Below, piece by piece: positions 1,663-51,633 of a stretch of 64,000 nt of DNA; the first letter of the stretch is position 1; each line of letters opens with the position of its first letter. The notes under the pieces are model-generated. The model did no database searches. It had not been told where the DNA came from and saw only the letters and a list, made by a program, of their open reading frames with translations. Source of the DNA: Phorcus lineatus (Eukaryota; Mollusca; Gastropoda; Trochida; Trochidae); assembly GCA_921293015.1 (NCBI GenBank), contig OV121091.1, positions 33,092,839 through 33,156,838 on the forward strand. The letters run 5' to 3'. Both the position numbers and the translations under genes were made by a program.

Positions 1663-1815
1663 CTCCTACGTAGGAGATACTAAGTCCTACGTAGGAGATA
1701 CTAAGTCCTACGTAGGAGATACTATCGCCTACCTTGAAGATACTAAGTCCTACATGTACGTAAGACGTAGAAACTATCTCTCACGTCGGAAATACTATCT
1801 CCTACGTCAGAAAAT
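1663..1815. repeat. 21-bp palindromic tandem repeat
   Basis: About three clean units of 21 bp followed by decayed ones. Each unit is built on the self-complementary core CTCCTACGTAGGAG with the spacer ATACTAAG. Later units drift (CGCCTACCTTGAAG, CTCCTACGTCAG). Every unit can fold on itself, so the array is a string of small hairpins about 1 kb upstream of the first coding exon of the next gene. Confidence 0.85.
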
Positions 1816-2804: not shown

Positions 2805-5800
2805 ATGTTGGTGGTCTATATAAGTTTTGGACTGGTCCTTTCAGTTTTTGGTAAACGAATTTTATATACTACTATGTATTCATGATATAAAAGATTATCA
2901 ATTCTGTTAGACGTCATATTTTATTACATTGCATATTCGTTTTTCTTTATGGTGGTGTGAGATTCAAATATATCTTCATTGTGGAAATGACAAGCTTATA
3001 GTTGAATATGTTGTTGGATATGTTCACAGATTCCACTTAAGAAAAAGCATATATAGAGATGGAGATATGAGTAGAAGCGCTGAAAGCCAAGCATTCATTG
3101 TCAGCCTCAAGTGAAGTATGATATTGTTCATGAAGAAGATATAATTAATCTGGTAAAACTTTATCTACTCATTTATTTGGACGAATATTTCTATCATAGC
3201 TTATATCATATAATTAACACGTAAGATGATTCTGCAGTTGTCTTCAAATAAGGATGTTTATGAAATATGCATTGTCTCGTTATTGTTATTGTCATATGAA
3301 CTGATAAGGTATAACTAGAACTGTTTAAATGTCAAATTTTGTTGATTTTTTTCCCATGTCCGGAAAAGTTTACCAAATGTGTGTGTAGAATGTTAAGCCA
3401 TTGGTGAAAAATTTATAATAGTTAAATTTTCTGACCATCGGACAAATTGTAGAAAGAGTTATATTAATAAATTCGATGTAAAAACTTGGTATATGATGGT
3501 CAGGAACAACGGATTTAGTTGCCACAAGGTCACGCACATAAATCCCTAAATATCAAGATATAAGGGAGTTAATTCAAAAGCAACTGCAATTAAATATACC
3601 GCTTTATGATATAAGGGAGACAATCCGATTACATCGAAAACATATCAAGTGGGGATAAGGAACACATTTTCAAATGAAATTGCAGTATACAAATGATTAA
3701 TTCTTTCATAAGCGAAATATTTTCATTTGATCAAAAGATTCCCTGTGTTTTTGTCGTAAAAAACACTAATCTACATTTCTATACTGACTTTGTTTAGAAC
3801 GTGTATTTAGGTACGTTTACTGGATGTTTAATACAGTTAATTTGTGAAACAGCTATTTAACTGTTTATAAATAACTGTTTATCAAAGTTTCCGGGGGAAT
3901 TTTGTTTAAAAATACGTGATGGTCCGCTTGACTAATGGTAACGTGTATGATACATCTTTCAGGAGAATTTAATGATGTGCAACCAACTACACCAAACTAC
4001 ACGTTTACAGCTACTAGCAGTATTGGACTGGCCATTTGCTCCAACTACACTGCAGTGGAACAGTGTCCAAACATGTTCCTCATACCATTTGGGTTCGCCG
4101 GTTTAAGTGCATTCGCCAGTAGTAAAGATTCCCCATATGCTATACAGAATGTGCTGTTTGAGAATGACCAAAACTTTACACATGCTTTGTGCAAGTAAGT
4201 AACGTAAATGCACTAATGGGTCATTTTGCAATATCTTTGAAATAGGTATTTCTTGCATCAATAGGAACCGATTTGTGAGTTATTCACTATGAATATTGGT
4301 CTCATAAATGTATATTATCTTTAGGACATTTGAAATTCGTTAATTTCATACTCACGATTTGCAATAAAAAGTACTGGCTGTATTCATTGATTTCTTATCC
4401 GTGATCTCCAATTGAAAGAAGTTCTATTCCTTTCGAACAATTGAAAATGATATCACCTCCTATGTTTTGAAAAAAAAGGAACAGAGGAAAATCTATAGAA
4501 TGTCTGACATATTATTCGCGCTGATATTCAGAAACCATCACTTCCTCTATACAATATTATACCCTTTATAAAGTTTGACATATTTGACTCCAAAAACGTA
4601 CTCTGTGCCCCTAGTATTGTCACCTTAGTGTTCGTGGAACGGAACCGAGGAGACATGATATATATTTTTGGAAACTGCATATTTTGTTTTGTTTTGATTA
4701 ATAAAGATACATTAATATATCCCCTTACATACATGTTTAACAGCGTCAAGGAGAACGAGCCAGGAGGATTGTGCGACCATTCAGTTGTAGAGAACTGCAC
4801 GTCTCGCTTCCCCTTCTTCCTCTGGAACGTCTTCCCCACGCTCTCAAGGATTGGTCAACTTCGTAAAATGATATGTGGAAACAGACAGAGTAAGATTACA
4901 GGAACGTTACAGGAAGGAATAATACTGATTCTAGTTTGCATCACTAAATCTTCTCAAATCTCTGCTAAAAGGTTTACTAGTACATAGATTTTAGAGGACC
5001 TCAATGGATGTTTCCTTACGCCTCACTTCCGGTTTGCTTTTAAAACATTTTCATTTGCTTATCAAATGTCTATACTATTGAGGTGAAGTTCATATTCCTG
5101 TTTAATGCTCGACTCAAAAATAGCCCAGTCAGATAAGAATCGACCCCGTTCTATGAAATATTATTTTAACTATTGCTCCTACTGAGCTGTGAACGGCTCA
5201 TCAGGGTATACCAACGACAGAGATCTCACATGTACGAATATAGTCGATTTATCCCGATAGCCTCAGTAGGTATGTTCGAGTCACCAAATAAAATGACAGA
5301 CAATAGTTCATCCCCTACCGTCTGGGTATGTTTATCTGCAAGACTTCTAAAATGCCCCTGTTGGGTTATATATTAAAGGCTAATCAATTAACTTAAAATT
5401 TCGTATTATTTGCAGTACCCGGATTACAACACTGCTAAAATTGCTATGAATAATCACCTGTAAGCGGTAAGAGGATAGTCATTGATGATGCAGTCAGAGA
5501 ATTATAGGAGCCTATAATGATGATAATCAGGGAATTATATAAGCCTATAGTGATGATGATCGGGGAATTATAGGAGCCTATAATGATGATAATCAGAGAA
5601 TTATAGGAGCCTATAATGGTGATAATCAGGGAATTATAGGAGCCTATAAAGATGATAATCAGAGAATTATAGGAGCCTATTGTGATGATAATCAGTGAAT
5701 TATAGGAGCCTATAATGATGATAATCAGAGAATTATAGGCGCCTATGATGATTATGATGATGATAATCAGAGAATTATAGGAGCGTCTAGTGGTGATAAT

Positions 5801-8800
5801 CAGAGAATTACATGAGCCTCTGGTGATGATAATCAGAAAATTAAAGGAGCTTCTAATGATGATAATCAGAGATTTGTAGAAGCCTCATTGGTAACACTTT
5901 CTTTTCTTCTTTTTACTGTTTGAAGAATACGATGACAAGTGTGTGAGTTCAAAGCTGGATGAAATGATGTCGTGTGTGAACGTCAGTGAGATGGTGTATA
6001 GAGCCGTCAATGACACCCCTGTATCTGGCTACACCGAGCTCATGAAGAACGCCACTTGTATGTAAGTGACATCAATTGAATGCTATGTCTACATCAGTAT
6101 CAATGTGATACTTGTAAGTCAAGCTCTCTCACTTGCTTTCAGAGATTGTGTTTGGTTACCGTCATACGTTTTTGAATGATAAACCCATGATAGCACATAA
6201 CCATATTTTGTCACCATACTCCCTCTCCTTTTCTACAGAGATGAATAGAGACATGTTATTTCTATAAGAACCATCCATCAGCGGCGAGCAGACTCATTAC
6301 TTTATCAACATGTACCATCTATAAAAGAATATCACATAAGTTCCAAAATTATAGATTCTATGTATTGCATTGGTACGGAAATTATCATAATCGACATCAC
6401 TTTTGAAAGCAACTTCTCTAACTCTATTTATAAGTAAAAATCCAGGATTTTCTTCGCATCATTATGTAGGAACATTTTCAATAATTGGTCCATTAACTTG
6501 AATATAAAACGCAAAACAGAGCTACAATGTTTTTAATGCTTTTAGAAAACGAATACACTTGTATTACAGGACCTATGCCCTCGGTCGCGTCTGTGCTCCT
6601 CAAATCCTGAGGGATTGTGGGGCGGAAACAGTGAAGATGTATGTGGAGGTTATTCCCTATTACCCACAGGAGTGTCAGCAAGCGCCGGGTGAGTATGAAC
6701 CCCGATTGACACTAAGGGTGTCCAAAAAAAAAGAAAGGTTTTCAAGATATTAGTTTGCCTATAAGAGTTAATGAAAATGAAAATGACGTACAGTGTCCGT
6801 TCGTATAACGAGCTTGTAATTTCCACGGTCTCTCTTCCACTTTTTCTTCTTTTTTTTTGTCGAAACCATAAAGCCGAATATGAAATTGACTCTCTGCGTG
6901 TTTCTGGAAATTGCATTAAGCTTTCAATTGTGTTAAAATACTAAATGTCCTGACTGAATCGTCTTGCGTGTCCATCCCCAAATGCGAAAAAAATGACAAT
7001 TTTCAGTAAAAATCGAAATTGGTCGTCATATATTTGCAGAAGTAGAAATAAGACGTCATAGTTACATGAATGCAGTAGACCTTTTCCACACTATCAGCTA
7101 CCTATCCTTCTATTTACTTTTGATAATTGTGCAAGAGTGCCTTTATCTTATCTTATTGACGCATGCCGTTTTACAATGTCTGGGTGATAAAAACAAGAAC
7201 AATTTTTAGACCTTCAATGGACTGATTAACATCAAGTACTTCTCGATATAACACCTCTAATAACGTATGACAGATGTGACCCTTCCAAAATGTGTCATAT
7301 CAAATTTCAATACCACAGTTATCTTCTAAATGTACACGCTTATTTCGCAAAGAATAACATTCAATCTATCTAATGAATTAAAAAATTATACCTTTTAATT
7401 CTCAGGATATCAGCAACACTTCAAAATAAGGCATCAATACATTTGCAGTGAGTTCTGAAACCAGTTGAAGTAATACTCTTCCTAAATTTTGATTACCTGT
7501 TAACCATTCTCTCCCAAAAATGGTACTTCCGTCAAAAACTCCCCTATAACTTCTGTCCTAATACAAGCGTTTCTCGGTCTAGAAATCTAGTAGCTTGATT
7601 GGATGCAGTCAACGGTAGTTGCAACCGGTGACGCCGTTTAAAACATTTCTACTCCAAACGCCTCAGAAACTTTGCTTTTGGAAAGCTCAACTTTATTTTA
7701 GTGGTAACTTTGCACATTGAGTCGTCTTTAAAGAACACGTCAGCTTTATATAGTGACTTTGGTAAACTGACGGAGGCCGAGAAGAGTTCGTATTAGAACA
7801 GAGGTTGTATAGGATTTAATGACAGAGCTACCTCTGTAGGGAGAGATTGCCTGTTAACCTGCATCTTCACAACGTCAAGGCCGAAACGAAAAGATTCTAT
7901 CACGATACATTTTCACCTTGCCGTGGGAAGATGGTTAACCTGATGAATCTATTTGAAATCTATTCACCATTACATAATGAAATCTGATCGATTTGAATTT
8001 CATAAGCACTTTTACAGAATGACTGCCAAACAAACGAAATGTTAATCAAGCATAACATCTTTCTTTGAAGAAATGATATAAATCAGATATGTGTCACTGT
8101 CATACAATTGTATTGAAATTTACCAATATGTAATCACGGCCAAATATAAGCATCTAGGAGCTTTTTGGTAAAACCATTGATGAATGGAATATTTTCATTA
8201 ATAAATATGTCTAAATCATTTCAATAACTCTTGTGAGCGGTGGTTATTTTTCTCCAAGGGGTTTATGATACAAGACGTTCAAAGCATGCTTTTAAGTATT
8301 TATTGCAATATTGCAAAAGGTAATTATGTTTCACTCGAATTCAGACATCGCTATGCCGTTAGAAGATGAATTTACTCCCAAGTTAATCACTAGTCATGAA
8401 TGCCAGTTTTGAATATTCCAGATATTGTACTGCCGAAGACGAAGTGTTCAAGCACGGATATAATGTACTCAGCGTTGAACTGCTTCTACAAAACCAGTCG
8501 ATATGCTAGGCTGCTTGGACACCTTTCAATAGACGAGTTGATAGAAACCATTCTCAAATCAGTAATATTTGATAACAACGAGGAGGTTTGCAGGTAATAG
8601 GAACACTATAATTTCAAATCTTATCAATATCACGGAGTGGATACCATTGTTGTTGTAGGTGCTCGTGGTGGCGTTTTCTTAGTTGTCGTTGGTTAATCAA
8701 GAATTTCGTTGGTGGAATTTGGCGCGCGTTTTGGTAATAGTAGTGTCCTTGCAAAATTTAGGATTGCGATCACGATGATATCGGTAACATACATGTAGAA

Positions 8801-11800
8801 TGAATTGATGATGATCATAAATTATTGTTACGTTGTTGGTAGATGTGTAATTGCGTTGATGTTAATGTGTCTTTTGGGAAATTTAAGATCTAGTGACGTC
8901 GTTGTTAGAATTGATCTAGATCTGCAATGCTTGGTTTTGGCGTCTTGATTTTGGACATATGAATTTAAAATTCCACACTTTGGTGTTGCCAATGGTCAAA
9001 CCACTCACCCTTGTTAGGCCATCACCTCGCCCATGCTCACACTACACACCCTGGTTAAGCCTTCACCTCATCCATCCTCACACTACTCACCCTCGTTAAG
9101 CTACCACCTCGCCAATGCTTACACTACACACCCTGGTTAAGCCTTCACCTCATCCATCCTCACACTACTCACCCTCGTTAAGCTACCACCTCGCCAATGC
9201 TCACACTACACACCCTGGTTAAGCCTTCACCTCATCCATCCTCACACTACTCACCCTCGTTAAGCCTTCACCTCATCCATCCTTACACTACTCACCCTCG
9301 TTAAGCCTTCACCTCATCCATCCTCACACTACTCACCCTCGTTAAGCCTTCACCTCATCCATCCTTACACTACTCACCCTCGTTAAGCCTTCACCTCATC
9401 CATCCTTACACTACTCACCCTCGTTAAGCTACCACCTCGCCAATGCTTACACCACTCGCCCCGGTTAAGCCTTCACCTCATCCATGCTTACACGACTCAC
9501 CCTCGTTAAGCTACCACCTCGCCAATGCTCACACCACTCGCCCCGGTTAAGCCATCACCTCATCCATGCTTACACTACTCACCCTCGTTAAGCCTTCACC
9601 TCATCCATCCTTACACTACTCACCCTCGTTAAGCCTTCACCTCATCCATCCTTACACTACTCACCCTCGTTAAGCTACCACCTCGCCAATGCTTACACCA
9701 CTCGCCCCGGTTAAGCCTTCACCTCATCCATGCTTACACGACTCACCCTCGTTAAGCTACCACCTCGCCAATGCTCACACCACTCGCCCCGGTTAAGCCA
9801 TCACCTCATCCATCCTTACACGACTCACCCTCGTTAAGCTACCACCTCATCCATCCTTACACTACTCACCCTCGTTAAGCCTTCACCTCATCCATCCTTA
9901 CACTACTCACCCTCGTTAAGCCTTCACCTCATCCATCCTTACACTACTCACCCTCGTTAAGCCTTCACCTCATCCATGCTTACACTACTCACCCTCGTTA
10001 AGCCTTCACCTCATCCATCCTTACACTACTCACCCTCGTTAAGCCTTCACCTCATCCATCCTTACACTACTCACCCTCGTTAAGCCTTCACCTCATCCAT
10101 CCTTACACTACTCACCCTCGTTAAGCTACCACCTCGCCAATGCTTACACCACTCGCCCCGGTTAAGCCTTCACCTCATCCATGCTTACACGACTCACCCT
10201 CGTTAAGCTACCACCTCGCCAATGCTCACACCACTCGCCCCGGTTAAGCCATCACCTCATCCATGCTTACACTACTCACCCTCGTTAAGCCTTCACCTCA
10301 TCCATCCTTACACTACTCACCCTTGTTAAGCCTTCACCTCATCCATCCATACACTACTCACCCTCGTTAAGCTACCACCTCACCAATGCTCACACCACTC
10401 GCCCCGGTTAAGCCATCACCTCATCCATCCTTACACGACTCACCCTCGTTAAGCCTTCACCTCATCCATCCTTACACTACTCACCCTCGTTAAGCTACCA
10501 CCTCGCCAATGCTCACACTACTCACCCCGGTTAAGCCATCACCTCATCCATGCTTACACTACTCACCCTTGTTAAGCCTTCACCTCATCCATCCTTACAC
10601 TACTCACCCTTGTTAAGCCTTCACCTCATCCATCCATACACTACTCACCCTCGTTAAGCTACCACCTCGCCAATGCTCACACTACTCACCCTCGTTAAGC
10701 CTTCACCTCATCCATCCTTACACTACTCACCCTTGTTAAGCCTTCACCTCATCCATCCATACACTACTCACCCTCGTTAAGCTACCACCTCACCAATGCT
10801 CACACCACTCGCCCCGGTTAAGCCATCACCTCATCCATGCTTACACGACTCCCCCTGGTTAAGCTACAAAGTTAACAAACAAGCTACAAACATTATGGAG
10901 AACTTACCTTGTGCAATGTGATTTAGTGTAATAGCTCTTTGGTTTCCATTTTTGTGATTAGTTGTTATAAAGATAACTCTTTTCATGTTTTGTTGCTTTT
11001 TTCTTGTGATTTGTTAGTTTTGGTGGTTGATGAAATTAGGGTTGTAGAGAGTGTATCCATAAGTAGTTAATTCAAGGCTGAATTTTATTATAGTCCCATA
11101 ATGTGTCCTCGTCGTTATGTTGTCAGTAACCTGGACACCTACAGAGAAGCGCTGACGTGCAGCCTGAAGGTTAGAAGCCAGTGTGTGGATTCAGCCATGA
11201 AAGCCTCAGTACAAGATCCAGACCACGTGATGCAGGGGTTGGTGACCCTCTGTAACAACAGAGGCAGTATGTATTATGTATTATCGTCGCTTTCACTTAT
11301 TGTCTCATTTCAAACGTCTGCATTTTAGAGACGTTTATGGCTACATAATGTTGTTACGTTAACATTTCTGAAACTAGAGAATTGATGTTTAAATTTCACC
11401 AGATATTAAGGTAGAATGCCTCCAAAATCTCACTTCACAGCGAACGATTGAAACACATAATTGACGAAACCTTTGCGGGATTCAAACTGCAAACCTCATA
11501 TTTTTGCAGACTTTGACAGCACCTGTGTACTTGCGGCTACGAGCAACAAATGTACACAACTAAAACGATCCACAATTTACGAACAAACAGTTCTGAAGCA
11601 TCTTTGTGGGTATGATATTTTCATCATTTTTCATTATATCAGTAAACATATTCAAAGAACTTTTTAATAGTAATCGCCGGTTCAAAATGAGGATAACAGC
11701 AGTAAGACATTAAAGTCCTTCCTTATAAAGCGACATTTTATATCGGGAACAGATGAATACTGAAAGGGATACACTTGATTACAAAATAATGCGAGTGTCG

Positions 11801-12202
11801 CCATGACAGAAACGTGATAGATTATACATTATATAAATTATTATACACTTTTAAGTACAACTGTTTTCCTTAAAGAGCTTTTGTATCATGTCCTTAAATA
11901 AGGGGAAATGTATTCAGTAACATGATGTCGTGTGTGTTTTTGATTATAGTAAACATTTTATATGAATATTGTTGATTTTTTTTCTTTCGTTTCCAGGGAT
12001 GTGTCCAACAGAAATCATTGTATTCTCTCGACTGTCAAGCATTGTGGCCACTCCACATCCATCCTGTATGCAAATGTCCTTCGCTCCCAACTCCCCAAGA
12101 TGTGCCTACCAAAGGGACACGCACCTGTTATTGGCTGACTCCGATATATTGATATTAATTTTAAAACATGTTAGAAATAAAATAATAACTTTTGAAAATT
12201 AA
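2805..12202 (+). CDS. Secreted protein with three six-cysteine modules (8 exons, about 409 aa)
   Basis: Family not recognised. Exons read from GT/AG borders: 2805-2850, 3963-4194, 4744-4889, 5926-6061, 6570-6688, 8422-8593, 11094-11266, 11997-12202. Their lengths sum to 1230 nt and every splice phase joins without a stop, giving 409 residues. Exon 1 is a signal peptide (MLVVYISFGLVLSVF, then G). The rest is three modules of six cysteines, each spread over two exons: C1-x(8-11)-C2, C3, then C4-x7-C5 and C6. The x7 spacing is kept in all three (CDHSVVENC, CAPQILRDC, CSLKVRSQC). The third module has one extra Cys (IMCPRRY). The last exon starts a partial fourth unit (MCPTEII). Several N-glycosylation sequons occur (NYT, NCT, NVS, NAT). 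There is no transmembrane segment, so it is probably secreted. The role is unknown; the Toll-like receptor gene lies 3.7 kb downstream on the same strand. Confidence 0.75.
5480..5885. repeat. 33-bp palindrome-containing minisatellite
   Basis: About eleven to twelve imperfect units of 33 bp in the intron just before the exon at 5926. The unit combines GATGATAATCAGAGA with the inverted repeat ATTATAGG-AG-CCTATAAT. Later units lose symmetry (GGAGCGTCTAG, GGAGCTTCTAA). Confidence 0.9.
6689..8421. other. Intron of the six-cysteine gene, nothing recognised
   Basis: AT-rich intron between the exons ending at 6688 and starting at 8422. A search by eye for further CxnC exons with open frame and splice borders found none, and the flanking phases (1 and 1) join directly. 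Confidence 0.5.
9000..10865. repeat. 41-bp minisatellite, about 45 units, with higher-order structure
   Basis: Tandem array inside the 2.5-kb intron between exons at 8593 and 11094. The period is 41 bp, measured from successive TTAAGCC steps. At least two unit types alternate. Type A contains CCTTCACCTCATCCATCC and TACTCACCCTCG; type B contains CTACCACCTCGCCAATGC and CCACTCGCCCCGG. Runs of A, then A-variant and B blocks recur in the same order near 9430-9560, 9690-9800 and 10110-10260, so multi-unit blocks were duplicated. The strand is strongly C-rich, so the complement is a repeated GGGTGAGT-type G-rich strand, unusual in this AT-rich window. Confidence 0.95.
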
Positions 12203-15665: not shown

Positions 15666-15915
15666 TTGATTAATCGTCAATGAATTAATGAATGAACTTT
15701 CAAGCTATGGAAGTCATCGGAATAAGGAGCAGTTGATTGCAGATTTCTGAAGCTTCACAAATGCGAATCATGAACTGAAAATGTTGTTTTAAACAGTTGT
15801 AAACGAATGGGAATGTATGGCTGTAACACCCTAAAACCAATTATGATTAACCTCTCATAAGCGCGACCGTTGATTCATCATCTTAATTTTTTTGCAGTTA
15901 ATTCTCAGTGGAGTG

Positions 15916-18414
15916 ATGAAGTTGCCACCCCAGGTCGCCCTTCTGTACATCAGTACCCTGTCCGTTTCTGGATCTGGCTGGACGGACGTTTGCGAACTCA
16001 AACCTGACAGAGCTTATGATGGAATATATGTATCATGCAGTCATCAATCCTTGAAGCATATCCCGTCCAAATTTCCCAATAATACAACTTCAATTGATCT
16101 GAGCAATAACTTGATATCTATCGTCAACAATTATAGCTTCAAAAATGTCACTAGACTGAAATCATTGATATTGAGGTTTAACCAAATTGCTCGTTTTGAA
16201 AGACATGCTTTCAGTGGATGTGATGAGATTGAATATCTGGATATTTCTTTCAATAGACTGGAGTTGACTCAAACATCATACCCAAATGGCGTGTTTTGTT
16301 CCCTTGGTAATCTTAAAAGTTTAGTGATGCAGAACAATCGTCTCGGCGATGTTGGAAGTTATCCCGACATCTTTCGGAATCTGACAAAGCTTGAGACACT
16401 CAGGATTGATTCATTTTCAAAACCGAGGTTCAACGAAGGAATGAAAAATCTTGTTAGTCTAAGAACTCTAGAGTTTGCAAACGAGTTTTGTAAAATGGAC
16501 ACTCTAAGAAATGACACATTCCTCGTGTTTCAAAATCTAAGCATAGAAGCATTGGATATTCATCATTGTCATATTGTGTCAGTTGAAACAGGGACCTTTG
16601 AACCTCTCTCCAAACTCAAAACCCTTTCTCTGGCAGACACAGTTTGTGGTGTCAAGAATGCGATACGGACTCTTGGTCCGTTTCATGGGAGGGATATGAA
16701 AGGCTTGGATCTGAGCATAGTGCGATATGCAGGTCAAGTGACCTCTATTACCAAAATCGAGGACGAGATATTGAAGGCAGCTGATCTTAAACCTTTAGCT
16801 GACATTTGTGTCAAAAGAGTCAACCTTCGCTATAACAACATTTTGTATTTAAAGTCACAGAGTATGATGAACACACTATTTTCCAGATGTGTAAGTCACC
16901 TGAATTTATCAAAAAACAATCTTGGATTCGGATATGACTTTTTCCTAATGTTGGAGCAGATGTCAAACCTGATTCACTTGGATATATCTAATCAAAAAGG
17001 AGCGGTAAGACCAGACAAAAAAGACACTCATAAAGCGAGTAGTCTTCTATTTGGCGATAAGGGTAGGGCAACAGGAATTGTTATACCCTTTCCTAAGTCT
17101 CTTGAGCACTTTAATGCTAGTTCAGTGTCTGGAAGTTTTGGGCAAGTTGCAAGTAATGTAACTTTTATCAATGGACAATCCTTAAGGGTGTTTGATGTTT
17201 CCAATTTGGGTCTGAAAGATTTTAATGGACATATTATTGGATTTGAAAATTTGAAAGTATTAGTACTATCAGGAAACCCAGACCTCATTACACCAGAAAC
17301 ATTCTTTGAAACCATGCCATCACTTGAGAGCTTAGATTTGAGTGATTACAGCATGAAACAGGTCAGACTCCTACGCCAGGGAAGACGTCTCCTTCAACCC
17401 CTAAGACATTTGAAAAATCTCAACCTCAAGAACAATCACCTTGTACAACTTCCATTTGGTCTGTTCGAATCCAACACTGAACTGATACATTTGGACCTAT
17501 CAAACAATGCTTTCACGTCAATCCCATATGACGTGAGGAGGATACTCCACCTCGAAGTCCTTGATTTATCTTCAAACACAATTAGAACCCTAGCAGAATC
17601 CAACAGAGAAGAGATAAATGAACATGTTGCTGATACAAATGAATTCAGTCTTCTGCTAGATGGCAACATTTTCACCTGCTCCTGTGCTAACTTCGAATTC
17701 TTCAGGTGGATAAAAGAAAAGGATCCTAGAGTGCATCTTGATCGCAACGGAAACTATTCGTGCCTTCTAGAACAAGGATTAGAGTCCAATACAGGATATC
17801 AAGTTGAAAAAATTAGTCACATGTGGAGGAAATGCATTGGTGTTAAGCTTTTCTATATCTCATCTTCTACATTAATAATCTTCGTAGCTATGGTTTTGTC
17901 ACTTCTCCTCGTAAACGGAAACAAAACTGTTCTCATTCAAATGATGATGAACATATTTCGTGAAAATATTCTTAAGCCTAAGAGGGCTGACTTCAGACGA
18001 GATGTGTATATCGCCTATGCTGAAGAGGATTACCAATGGGTTTGTCACCACTTATGTCCAGCCCTGGAGAAGCGACACCTGTCTCTATTCATCTGGGACC
18101 GAGATTCTGTTCCCGGAGACTCAATCCCTGACCAGATTGTAGAGAACGTCCAGTCCTGCTGGAAGATACTGCTCTACTACACAGACAACTTCCAGAAGGA
18201 CCCCTGGACTTACATTAGCATCATGGCAGCCGTTAACTCAGTGGATGACATCAGTCCTGAGAAGGTCCTGCTCCTGCTGCCCGAACATGAGAATCCTCGA
18301 GTCCCCAACTGTCTGCTGGAGGTTATCCCTGAGTCGTGTATCATCCGTGTCCCTGGTGGGGCGTGTTATGAGGATCTTTGGGAAACAATAACGAACAAGG
18401 TCAAAGAAAACTAA
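15916..18414 (+). CDS. Toll-like receptor, single LRR C-cap type (832 aa)
   Basis: Membrane pattern-recognition receptor that signals through TIR-TIR contacts with adaptors such as MyD88 (family knowledge). The ATG at 15916 is chosen because a splice acceptor (TTTTTTTGCAG) ends at 15897 and the ATG is the first in frame after it. Order: signal peptide about 1-25; short N-cap with two Cys (VCELK, VSCSH); leucine-rich repeats about 48-583, including SIDLSNN, YLDISFN, HLDLSNN and VLDLSSN; one LRR C-cap from residue 584 (FTCSCANFEFFRWIK); transmembrane helix 645-666; TIR domain from 693 (box 1 RDVYIAYAEED, box 2 RDSVPGD at 729-735 with the BB-loop Pro 733, box 3 DLW at 820-822). The whole coding region is one exon, as in many molluscan receptors. 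The usual WCxxE after the TIR helix is WTYIS here, so Cys and Glu are absent. Length suits single-C-cap receptors. The orthologue group cannot be fixed. Confidence 0.97.
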   Translation: MKLPPQVALLYISTLSVSGSGWTDVCELKPDRAYDGIYVSCSHQSLKHIPSKFPNNTTSIDLSNNLISIVNNYSFKNVTRLKSLILRFNQIARFERHAFSGCDEIEYLDISFNRLELTQTSYPNGVFCSLGNLKSLVMQNNRLGDVGSYPDIFRNLTKLETLRIDSFSKPRFNEGMKNLVSLRTLEFANEFCKMDTLRNDTFLVFQNLSIEALDIHHCHIVSVETGTFEPLSKLKTLSLADTVCGVKNAIRTLGPFHGRDMKGLDLSIVRYAGQVTSITKIEDEILKAADLKPLADICVKRVNLRYNNILYLKSQSMMNTLFSRCVSHLNLSKNNLGFGYDFFLMLEQMSNLIHLDISNQKGAVRPDKKDTHKASSLLFGDKGRATGIVIPFPKSLEHFNASSVSGSFGQVASNVTFINGQSLRVFDVSNLGLKDFNGHIIGFENLKVLVLSGNPDLITPETFFETMPSLESLDLSDYSMKQVRLLRQGRRLLQPLRHLKNLNLKNNHLVQLPFGLFESNTELIHLDLSNNAFTSIPYDVRRILHLEVLDLSSNTIRTLAESNREEINEHVADTNEFSLLLDGNIFTCSCANFEFFRWIKEKDPRVHLDRNGNYSCLLEQGLESNTGYQVEKISHMWRKCIGVKLFYISSSTLIIFVAMVLSLLLVNGNKTVLIQMMMNIFRENILKPKRADFRRDVYIAYAEEDYQWVCHHLCPALEKRHLSLFIWDRDSVPGDSIPDQIVENVQSCWKILLYYTDNFQKDPWTYISIMAAVNSVDDISPEKVLLLLPEHENPRVPNCLLEVIPESCIIRVPGGACYEDLWETITNKVKEN

Positions 18415-48906: not shown

Positions 48907-51633
48907 TCACATTGACACTTGACAAATAAAATCAGAGCGGGATTTACAGGTGATATCCTGCAACAGTAGAGTCTTTTTCATACACACACAGTTCTCCTCA
49001 ACCCAACCAAGAAGTGTGTGAGTTGGTTCTTTATCATTCCATCTGTCCTCATCAACATAAGGTGTCCCATCTCCCCATTTAAACTGCTTCAACTCTTTGT
49101 GGTAGGTGAGATCAATCCAAGCACAGTCTGTAACACCCACAAAACCCTCAGATTATTAGCTTCGTTATTCAAAGGTTCATGAAATATTGATTAGACAAAT
49201 ATCCAATATTACCATGGTATTTCAATAATTAAAAAAAGACTGGTCCATGCTATGTCGTTGGTCAAGGGTTTTAAGCTATTCATATTCAAACTCCACATTT
49301 TGTTCATGACAATCTATTTTGATATCCTATAATAATCTCGGTAGTCTCGAAATGTTATAGATGAAGTGTTGCAAGCACGATTTTAAATAGGTTTTAATGG
49401 ACCGTTTTGATAATTTTTAGATTGTGCAATATGTTGTGTGTACATGAACACAATAAATGACAGTCAATATAGGGGTATCGATTTATGAATAAATGTATAT
49501 AATAATAGCTTTCTTATACCGCGCATATATCCATGACAAAGCATGCTCAAAGCGCCATGAGTATTATTACCCTGGAGGGATAGTTCATTCGGTGCTGCCG
49601 ATTAACAAGCGCTCCGCGCGACCGTATAGGTCCATACTTCCCCCTTGTTCAGGTACCCATTTGTACAGCTGGGTGAACTGAGTGCAAAGTGGATGAAATA
49701 TCTTGCCAACACAGGATGAGACCCAAGTCACAAATTTTTGGTGTCTCCACCGGGATTCGAACCCGGGTCTCTGGCGTGAGAAGCAAGCAAGCTTACCACT
49801 ACACCACTGTGCTCCACAGTATATATGGCACAGAGCTTAGATACGGTAGTATTCTACTTGAAATGCACAAGCACACAGTTAGAAACTTTATTCCAAACCA
49901 ATTGTTTGTGCATTCTTTCTTGTGTTTCTAACAGGATAACTTCACATACTTTTATTCTTCCAAGCAAAATATGTTAAAGACTTCACATTTGATTTGACAC
50001 TTGATAAACCAAAATGTCATTCGCTTCAAACGAATAAAACGTGAAATAGAGATAAAAACAAGGCAAATCCATCTGACATACCGTATTTATTTCCCATGAA
50101 GATTCGTTTGAGAGTGTTCTCAGGGAAGCCCTTTGAGAACTGTGCTAGTGAACCTCCCTCCTCTCCACACCGCATCTTGGCCTTAGCAAACGAAAGGCCC
50201 TTTGTGTGGTACTTCAACTCAATTGCTTTGTCAGATATTTTATTTGGGACTGCAATATAAAAAGTTAGAGAGAAAATAGATTATCTTATTAATCCTAAAA
50301 TTAATAGATTTTAAGAAATAAAAACATTTTAAATGAAACATGGTTTAAGTTATCTATCAATTACTCCTTATAGACATTTCAATTTGATAGAATAAGTCTT
50401 ACCTTGCAGGTCCCTTATATGGAAGCAAACTGGTTTCCCCCATCTGCTAAATATGACACGTGACCATCTCATACATGTTGTGTTTGAAATGCTGCCCAGC
50501 AGCTGGGTATCCTGTCAAAAATGTATTGTCATATAAATATCATTAAGCGCCCATAAATTGATTGCTGAATGTCAGTCTCAGCAGTTAGACATTATGCCAA
50601 TCATTCAAGGTCACATAAATGCTGGTTGCTGTAGTAGTCAGGTAAGCTGTTGATGAACTGTAATATCATACAATTTCAATCAGAAGTCAGGCATTCCGTC
50701 ATTTATTTTAAGATGCTATAAATTCTGCTAGCTGTACCATCCAGGTAACCTTTTGAGGAATCAATTAAAGATCACATTAATGCTGCTAGCTGTAGCAGCC
50801 AGGTAAACCGTTAATGAAATATGCTATCATATTAATATCACTCAGAAGACATATTTCATGTTAATGAAATACAAAAATATATAAACATTACATCTTGTTG
50901 TTTAATTGGAAAAAAAACATTACAATGATATTTCGAAGCCACGTTATGTGATTTAAGTACCACTCAGTAACAAGGTTAGGTGGGGTTATTTGGGGTATTT
51001 CACTTATATCACGGCTGCTAAAATAATTGCAGGGAGAACGCCAAAAACACCATTGTGGCTATGCAATGTGGTAAAACCTGCGAGCATCAGCTAGCATTGG
51101 CAAACCATGAGTTGTACTGCGCTGAATTCAGTGAACCACTGCACCCAAACCGTACTTTATGTTGATCAATTCCAGACTGCAGACAAAGTTGCAAAAACCT
51201 TGCCGGATTTGAACACTATTGCTCTTGATCCGAAATTTAACATGCTTACCACTGTGCTATCGCGCTCACCTCAGCAACATGGAATCCTACCGACGAACTG
51301 ATATTTCATTATCTGTACATTACTTCAATCAAACTTTTGAAATAAATCTCAACAATACAGATAAACAAACTTCCATTATAAATACAAATAAAATATCACA
51401 TTTTATTTAACCTGAACTTCTCCAGTCAGTGCCTGATCTTCTGGTGCTCTGTGAAATTTACCACGGTGGCAGGATAAACTGAGAGGAAGATAGGTGTAAG
51501 ATGTACAACCAAACGTTGTTCTGCAAATCCACTTGCACAGGGACACACCAATAGGACCTCTCTGCAGTAGAGTGGTTCTCGTAAATGGTGGACATAGAGG
51601 AACAAGGTAGATCAAAACCAACATGTTTTTCAT
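48907..51633 (-). CDS. CTL3: secreted PAN-like plus C-type-lectin-like protein (4 exons, 239 aa)
   Basis: The cleanest copy. Minus-strand exons 51633-51412, 50511-50403, 50249-50082 and 49127-48907 (222, 109, 168, 221 nt; phases 0, 1, 1) join into 239 residues. The ATG at 51633 is preferred over one 12 nt upstream because TTTTGCCAG directly precedes it, as in CTL1 and CTL2, implying an acceptor of a 5'-UTR intron. Signal peptide 1-22 (MKNMLVLIYLVPLCPPFT). Residues 30-110: C-x3-C-x5-C-x11-C (SLCKWICRTTFGC), then NTTC and PVC, a PAN/apple-like pattern. C-type-lectin-like domain about 111-239: LSFAKAKMRCGEEGGSLAQF, CAWIDLTYHKELKQFKWGDG, EDRWNDKEPTHTLLG, ENCVC, LLLQD, CKSRSDFICQVSM. EPN is replaced by EPT and WND by LQD, so calcium-dependent sugar binding is uncertain; a secreted ligand-binding protein is the safe inference. 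Confidence 0.85.
49495..49814 (-). mobile_element. tRNA-derived SINE (Glu-like head)
   Basis: Minus strand: GTGGTGTAGTGGTAAGC (A box), an anticodon-arm remnant with CTC in the loop, and CCGGGTTCGAATCCCGG (B box plus T stem), within 49741-49814. It lacks the pairing of a working tRNA. The body follows down to a tail with GGCGCTTTGAGCATG and TGCGCGGTATAAGAAAGC, a 3' end style known from invertebrate SINEs. Lies in CTL3 intron 3. Confidence 0.85.
50585..50860 (-). repeat. Reduplicated exon-2 edge in CTL3 intron 1
   Basis: The segment around the CTL3 exon-2 acceptor (plus strand AATGCTGCCCAGCAGCTGGG...) recurs three times upstream as decayed versions: AATGCTGGTTGCTGTAGTAG, AATTCTGCTAGCTGTACC and AATGCTGCTAGCTGTAGCAG. 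Each is followed by CAGGTAA and an ATATCAT tail, spaced about 105 to 125 bp. Confidence 0.7.
51195..51272 (-). mobile_element. Decayed tRNA-like SINE head in CTL3 intron 1
   Basis: Minus strand: GATAGCACAGTGGTAAGCAT (A box) and GTGTTCAAATCCGGC (B box) at tRNA-like spacing. Body not delimited; it probably extends toward 50990. Confidence 0.55.

Follow-up and report, generated by a model that had tools for sequence, protein, structure and literature searches.

Near the start of the window (the whole stretch of 64,000 nucleotides of Phorcus lineatus DNA analyzed here) lies a chain of open, cysteine-rich exons, and we asked whether these exons form a genuine gene, to which protein family its product belongs, and what such a protein might do. 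A preliminary description of this DNA had joined eight exons into a secreted 409-residue protein built of three modules. We found that nine coding exons, joined from the sequence, span positions 2805 to 12138 of the forward strand and encode a protein of 410 residues with four modules, the extra module being that of exons 8 and 9 (Table 1). The consistent phases given in that description hold, the chain lies on the forward strand and opens with a hydrophobic first exon, and AG/GT sites and phases agree across the nine exons. The gene looks genuine.

Table 1. Coding exons of the cysteine-rich gene and its likely polyadenylation signal (positions are those of the window)
Feature	Position	Strand	Content
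Exon 1	2805..2850	+	start codon with presumed signal peptide (MLVVYISFGLVLSVF; judged by eye), phase-1 donor
Exon 2	3963..4194	+	module 1 (long), 5' half: C1, C2, C3; ends 2 bases past the C3 codon
Exon 3	4744..4889	+	module 1, 3' half: C4-x7-C5, C6
Exon 4	5926..6061	+	module 2 (short), 5' half: C1, C2, C3; start fits paralogues (KYNISC, DYNQAC)
Exon 5	6570..6688	+	module 2, 3' half: C4-x7-C5-G motif, C6
Exon 6	8422..8593	+	module 3 (long), 5' half: C1, C2, C3
Exon 7	11127..11266	+	module 3, 3' half: C4-x7-C5, C6; most frequent finder of paralogues
Exon 8	11510..11609	+	module 4 (short), 5' half: C1, C2, C3; fourth module, missed in the earlier count
Exon 9	11997..12138	+	module 4, 3' half: C4-x7-C5-G motif, C6, tail ...PVIG, stop TGA
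AATAAA, likely polyadenylation signal	12176..12181	+	starts 38 bases past the stop

The 5' half-exons (2, 4, 6 and 8) are entered in phase 1, contain C1, C2 and C3, and are left two bases past the C3 codon. The 3' half-exons (3, 5, 7 and 9) are entered in phase 2, contain C4-x7-C5 and C6, and are left in phase 1, with the exception of exon 9. Each module is therefore split over two exons, as had been claimed and as is true of all four, by a phase-2 intron just past the C3 codon, and phase-1 introns lie between the modules. Seven N-glycosylation sequons are present (residues 27, 43, 86, 110, 160, 170 and 183), all of them N-terminal of module 3. Two introns contain minisatellites: between exons 6 and 7, approximately 45 copies of a 41-base unit, C-rich on the forward strand, take up a large part of the intron (window 9003-10864), and between exons 3 and 4 there are 11.6 copies of a 33-base unit (window 5494-5885). 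A further tandem repeat at window positions 1664-1753 has a 21-base unit that contains the palindrome TCCTACGTAGGA.

Two other features were observed in the window. Approximately 3.7 kb downstream of the cysteine-rich gene is a Toll-like receptor gene, whose open frame (15874-18414, forward strand) contains leucine-rich repeats and a TIR domain according to Pfam and a transmembrane stretch judged by eye; a lone neighbour of this kind says little on function. A marginal tRNA match was found at 49750-49806 on the reverse strand (30 bits against a gathering score of 29, E-value 0.031).

We found 24 cysteines, four times six, with exactly three in each of the eight exons that follow the signal exon. 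The step from C1 to C2, described previously as 8 to 11 residues, is x8, x10, x11 and x8 in modules 1 to 4, the steps from C3 to C4 are 10, 8, 11 and 8, and C6 is present as had been reported. The invariant length of C4-x7-C5 holds in four of the four window modules, a count that is free of selection by the exon finder described below. When three cysteines were placed randomly in each exon, a first step of x7 in all four 3' half-exons was obtained in 1 of 200000 trials, an equal first step of any length in all four in 14 of 200000, and a cysteine as the final complete codon of every 5' half-exon in 1 of 200000. Each module comprises approximately 70-110 residues, modules 1 and 3 being long and modules 2 and 4 short, and this alternation suggests that the unit is a long-short pair that is used twice.

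We questioned whether the gene belongs to a family within its own genome (958 Mb in 74 contigs, of which the contig of the window is referred to here as C17; all counts for this genome are lower bounds). A translated genome search with the 410-residue protein returned its own eight module exons and at least four weaker places, all on C17, at 32.66 Mb (two places), 26.66 Mb and 19.97 Mb, with E-values of 0.0016, 0.0039, 0.0045 and 0.11. Exon models built at these places add to the family on C17 at least three similarly constructed genes or gene chains; the family also includes one decayed remnant, described below. The 32.66-Mb and 26.66-Mb paralogues are four-module genes, and the 19.97-Mb chain contains six modules (long, long, long, short, long, short) which may be one gene or two. 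The exon finder used for the paralogues demanded the phases and the cysteine steps, and the exons that escaped it were added manually in accordance with those phases. The agreement of the paralogues in their internal borders (AG/GT, phases 1-2-1-2) is therefore partly by construction. The translated matches that led to the paralogues made no demand on phases or cysteine steps. A plausible signal exon lies upstream of the 32.66-Mb gene, and there are candidates for the other paralogues. Judged by eye, the 26.66-Mb and 19.97-Mb genes encode hydrophobic C-terminal tails that look like GPI or membrane signals, and the protein of the window gene and that of the 32.66-Mb gene have no such tail and finish with ...PVIG.

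Searches with the three paralogues returned mostly the same genes among the matches listed, the new places being one at 19.967 Mb and one on contig C1. The former (C17:19966638-19967100, forward strand) is a decayed relative of modules 3 and 4 that has lost cysteines and whole pieces, and it lies on the other strand from the 19.97-Mb chain. The latter, at 29.748 Mb of C1, has an E-value of 0.52 and two stops and is the sole listed match off C17 in the paralogue searches. Near the 19.97-Mb paralogue are two long open frames, one for what we take by eye to be an IgGFc-binding-type protein (C17:19956003-19957481, reverse strand) and one for what is presumably a RING/B-box TRIM-type protein, again judged by eye (C17:19988700-19991115, forward strand).

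Six-cysteine modules, a phase-2 intron past C3, phase-1 introns between modules and C4-x7-C5 were found throughout this family with the exception of module 4 of the 26.66-Mb gene, these features having also served as search criteria for the paralogue exons. C4-x7-C5 occurs in 17 of the 18 modules of the window gene and its paralogues, a count that is biased upward outside the window since the finder required C-x7-C, and V, I, L, M or F stands at C4+4 or C4+5 in 17 of 17. The motif C5-[GD]xx[TA]xx[ILM][YF], which was drawn from these same sequences, is present in all eight short modules and in none of the ten long ones. Module alignments show that the cysteines are far better preserved than other residues and that the stretch from C2 to C3 varies in both length and sequence. 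The exceptional module, the fourth of the 26.66-Mb gene, is without both C2 and C4 and keeps the other four cysteines; this one joint loss suggests a C2-C4 disulfide in the modules. Taken together, we are highly confident in the anatomy of the window gene and in its membership of this family.

How the modules are related was assessed with an all-against-all BLAST of the 18 modules (composition correction off, the database being the 18 sequences). The best match of each window module was the paralogue module of the same number, with E-values of 4.9e-15, 2.0e-14 and 6.8e-17 for modules 2, 3 and 4. Window module 1 is barely like any other and matched solely module 1 of the 32.66-Mb gene, weakly (E 0.056). 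Identity between window and paralogue exon pairs at the same module position was 20-39% over at least 40 aligned residues, and the presence of such pairs in the paralogues supports the exon model of the window gene. Since modules pair by position across genes, the arrangement long-short-long-short probably predates the gene duplications.

The sequences between the cysteines had been called almost unrelated, and this description is borne out: no pair among the window protein's own four modules matched at an E-value of 1 or below, and comparison of the long and short profiles with hhalign gave a probability of 1.7% (P 0.029), yet with the C3-C4-C5 register correct. The long modules are nonetheless connected through the paralogues (the first and third modules of the 32.66-Mb gene, for example, match at an E-value of 2.3e-7), and short modules match each other across positions weakly (best 0.002). 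For a common origin of long and short modules, the exon borders that they share are stronger evidence than the hhalign score. Growth of the protein by exon-pair duplication, as proposed earlier, is supported by the fact that each of the four modules corresponds to a single exon pair, with identical phases in all of them. Given that long modules match long and short modules weakly match short, the duplicated repeat may be the two-module, long-short unit rather than the single module.

We asked whether the modules belong to a described domain family, to which the preliminary description had not assigned them. Pfam was scanned with the full-length protein, with seven long-short units and with 15 single modules (eight short and seven of the ten long), and no match at cut-off was obtained from these scans, from NCBIfam with the whole protein, or from the PDB with the whole protein; in PDB profile searches with all, short or long modules the best E-value was only 0.88. 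The protein thus stays unassigned after these searches. Zinc finger, IER, SAND, Paramecium surface antigen and similar Pfam rows appeared at E-values of 0.027 or weaker with bit scores far under cut-off, and were rejected as chance since shuffled sequences give equal or stronger rows. DUF19 (PF01579) is a nematode cysteine-rich secreted domain. The window protein resembles it in being cysteine-rich and presumably secreted but differs in profile: DUF19 was absent from the matches of the Pfam scans of protein, units and modules, and a genome search with DUF19 gave no match, its controls being equally silent, so that the genome may still contain this domain. The open-access literature searched, including work on DUF1397, 27-kDa hemolymph proteins and bivalve six-cysteine proteins, yielded no account of the family, and none of the DUF1397 papers listed there mentioned a mollusc in its title or in the opening of its abstract that was displayed.

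The sole lead was Pfam PF07165 (DUF1397), which comprises insect 27-kDa glycoproteins. Of its 207 positions, 129-196 were matched by window module 2 (E 0.0038) at 17.1 bits, where the curated cut-off is 25.7, and 129-190 by the second module of the 26.66-Mb gene (E 0.076, 12.8 bits). It is conceivable that the window protein is a distant DUF1397 member, in which case one domain would equal one long-short unit, two domains would stand in tandem, and the protein would be of hemolymph type and responsive to immune challenge. The total length of DUF1397 is about that of one unit, and the match sits where the short half would fall if a long and a short module together made approximately 190-207 residues. 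Serine in place of any one of C1 to C5 in window module 2 brought the match under the reporting level, and substitution of C6, which lies outside the matched stretch, had no effect; since single changes abolish the match, DUF1397 conserves cysteines at these spacings. A silkworm 27-kDa glycoprotein is listed as DUF1397 in a table of PMC8358373. Passages of PMC4224417 report a 27-kDa hemolymph protein that is up-regulated in Galleria after fungal challenge (its DUF1397 identity is taken from the name), passages of PMC8914287 use a 27-kDa glycoprotein as a marker of oenocytoid-like hemocytes in Bombyx, and DUF1397 is named in a passage of PMC6878950 as recruited into scutigeromorph centipede venom. 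Against membership, the match is carried by cysteine spacing alone: among 34 shuffles of module 2 from the two genes with the cysteines fixed, two matched DUF1397 (one of 29 for the window module, at an E-value of 0.00079, better than the real sequence, and one of five for the 26.66-Mb module, at 0.047), and these shuffles revealed no residue similarity beyond the cysteines. Nothing reached 25.7 bits, and there was no match for the other six of the eight short modules, the seven long modules scanned, the seven units or the whole protein. A search of this genome with the DUF1397 model listed a single weak place (E 3.45), which lies on a different contig. Because the five-cysteine spacing fits and residue evidence does not extend beyond it, we did not file this protein of two tandem units under DUF1397, and we regard membership as doubtful. 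It is also unlikely, in our estimation, that the modules represent an undescribed ancient extracellular fold that shares its cysteine framework with the arthropod 27-kDa DUF1397 proteins. On that reading the long-short pair would already have been present in the common ancestor of the two families, and tandem, secreted and membrane-tethered versions would have arisen in the present lineage, possibly for immune binding.

Two further readings concern the gene as a whole. The protein might be a structural component of matrix, mucus or egg coat, its modules serving as spacers without a specific ligand. Such a role would suit cysteines that outlast the remaining sequence, and tables in PMC5865745 and PMC8035744 include DUF1397 proteins among those of insect peritrophic matrices, a point that counts here solely if the protein is indeed related to DUF1397. 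Six cysteines per module suggest bonds that close within the module rather than cross-links, however, and the paralogues with hydrophobic tails suggest a role at the cell surface; we consider a structural role improbable. That the exon chain is instead a gene-model artefact or a dead gene draws on the decayed relative at 19.967 Mb, and is made very improbable by frames that stay open through nine exons and by cysteine positions that are preserved in paralogues of such low identity.

The best explanation as a whole, which we favor with some reserve, is that the gene encodes a secreted, disulfide-rigid glycoprotein of 410 residues, built of two long-short units and belonging to a small family on C17, that acts in extracellular binding. 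From the sequence we infer secretion, N-glycosylation, disulfide pairing and a compact and possibly helical fold centered on C4-x7-C5, where a test of helix periodicity gave no significant signal, 82 of 500 shuffles having attained the moment of the real sequence. Six cysteines per module would most simply form three disulfides within each module, and modules stapled in this way could make up a protease-resistant extracellular rod. In body fluid or in mucus, the rod might bind some partner or ligand, with the variable stretch from C2 to C3 carrying the specificity of binding. Paralogues with hydrophobic C-terminal tails would present their modules at the cell surface, and the others would be soluble. 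A disulfide-rigid binding protein fits the presumed secretion, the six cysteines per module, the sequons, the variable C2-C3 stretch and the tailed paralogues; the binding role toward an extracellular partner is itself put forward tentatively, as a possibility of less than even probability.

Our data define, at the level of exons, a secreted module family that falls below threshold in the libraries searched. They also provide a rule by which relatives might be recognized at very low identity, namely a phase-2 intron past C3, C4-x7-C5 and two alternating module types. Animals have many lineage-specific secreted cysteine-rich families. Were the insect 27-kDa proteins truly related to the present one, two uncharacterized extracellular families would be joined; otherwise, the modules described here would constitute a lineage-specific secreted cysteine-rich family.
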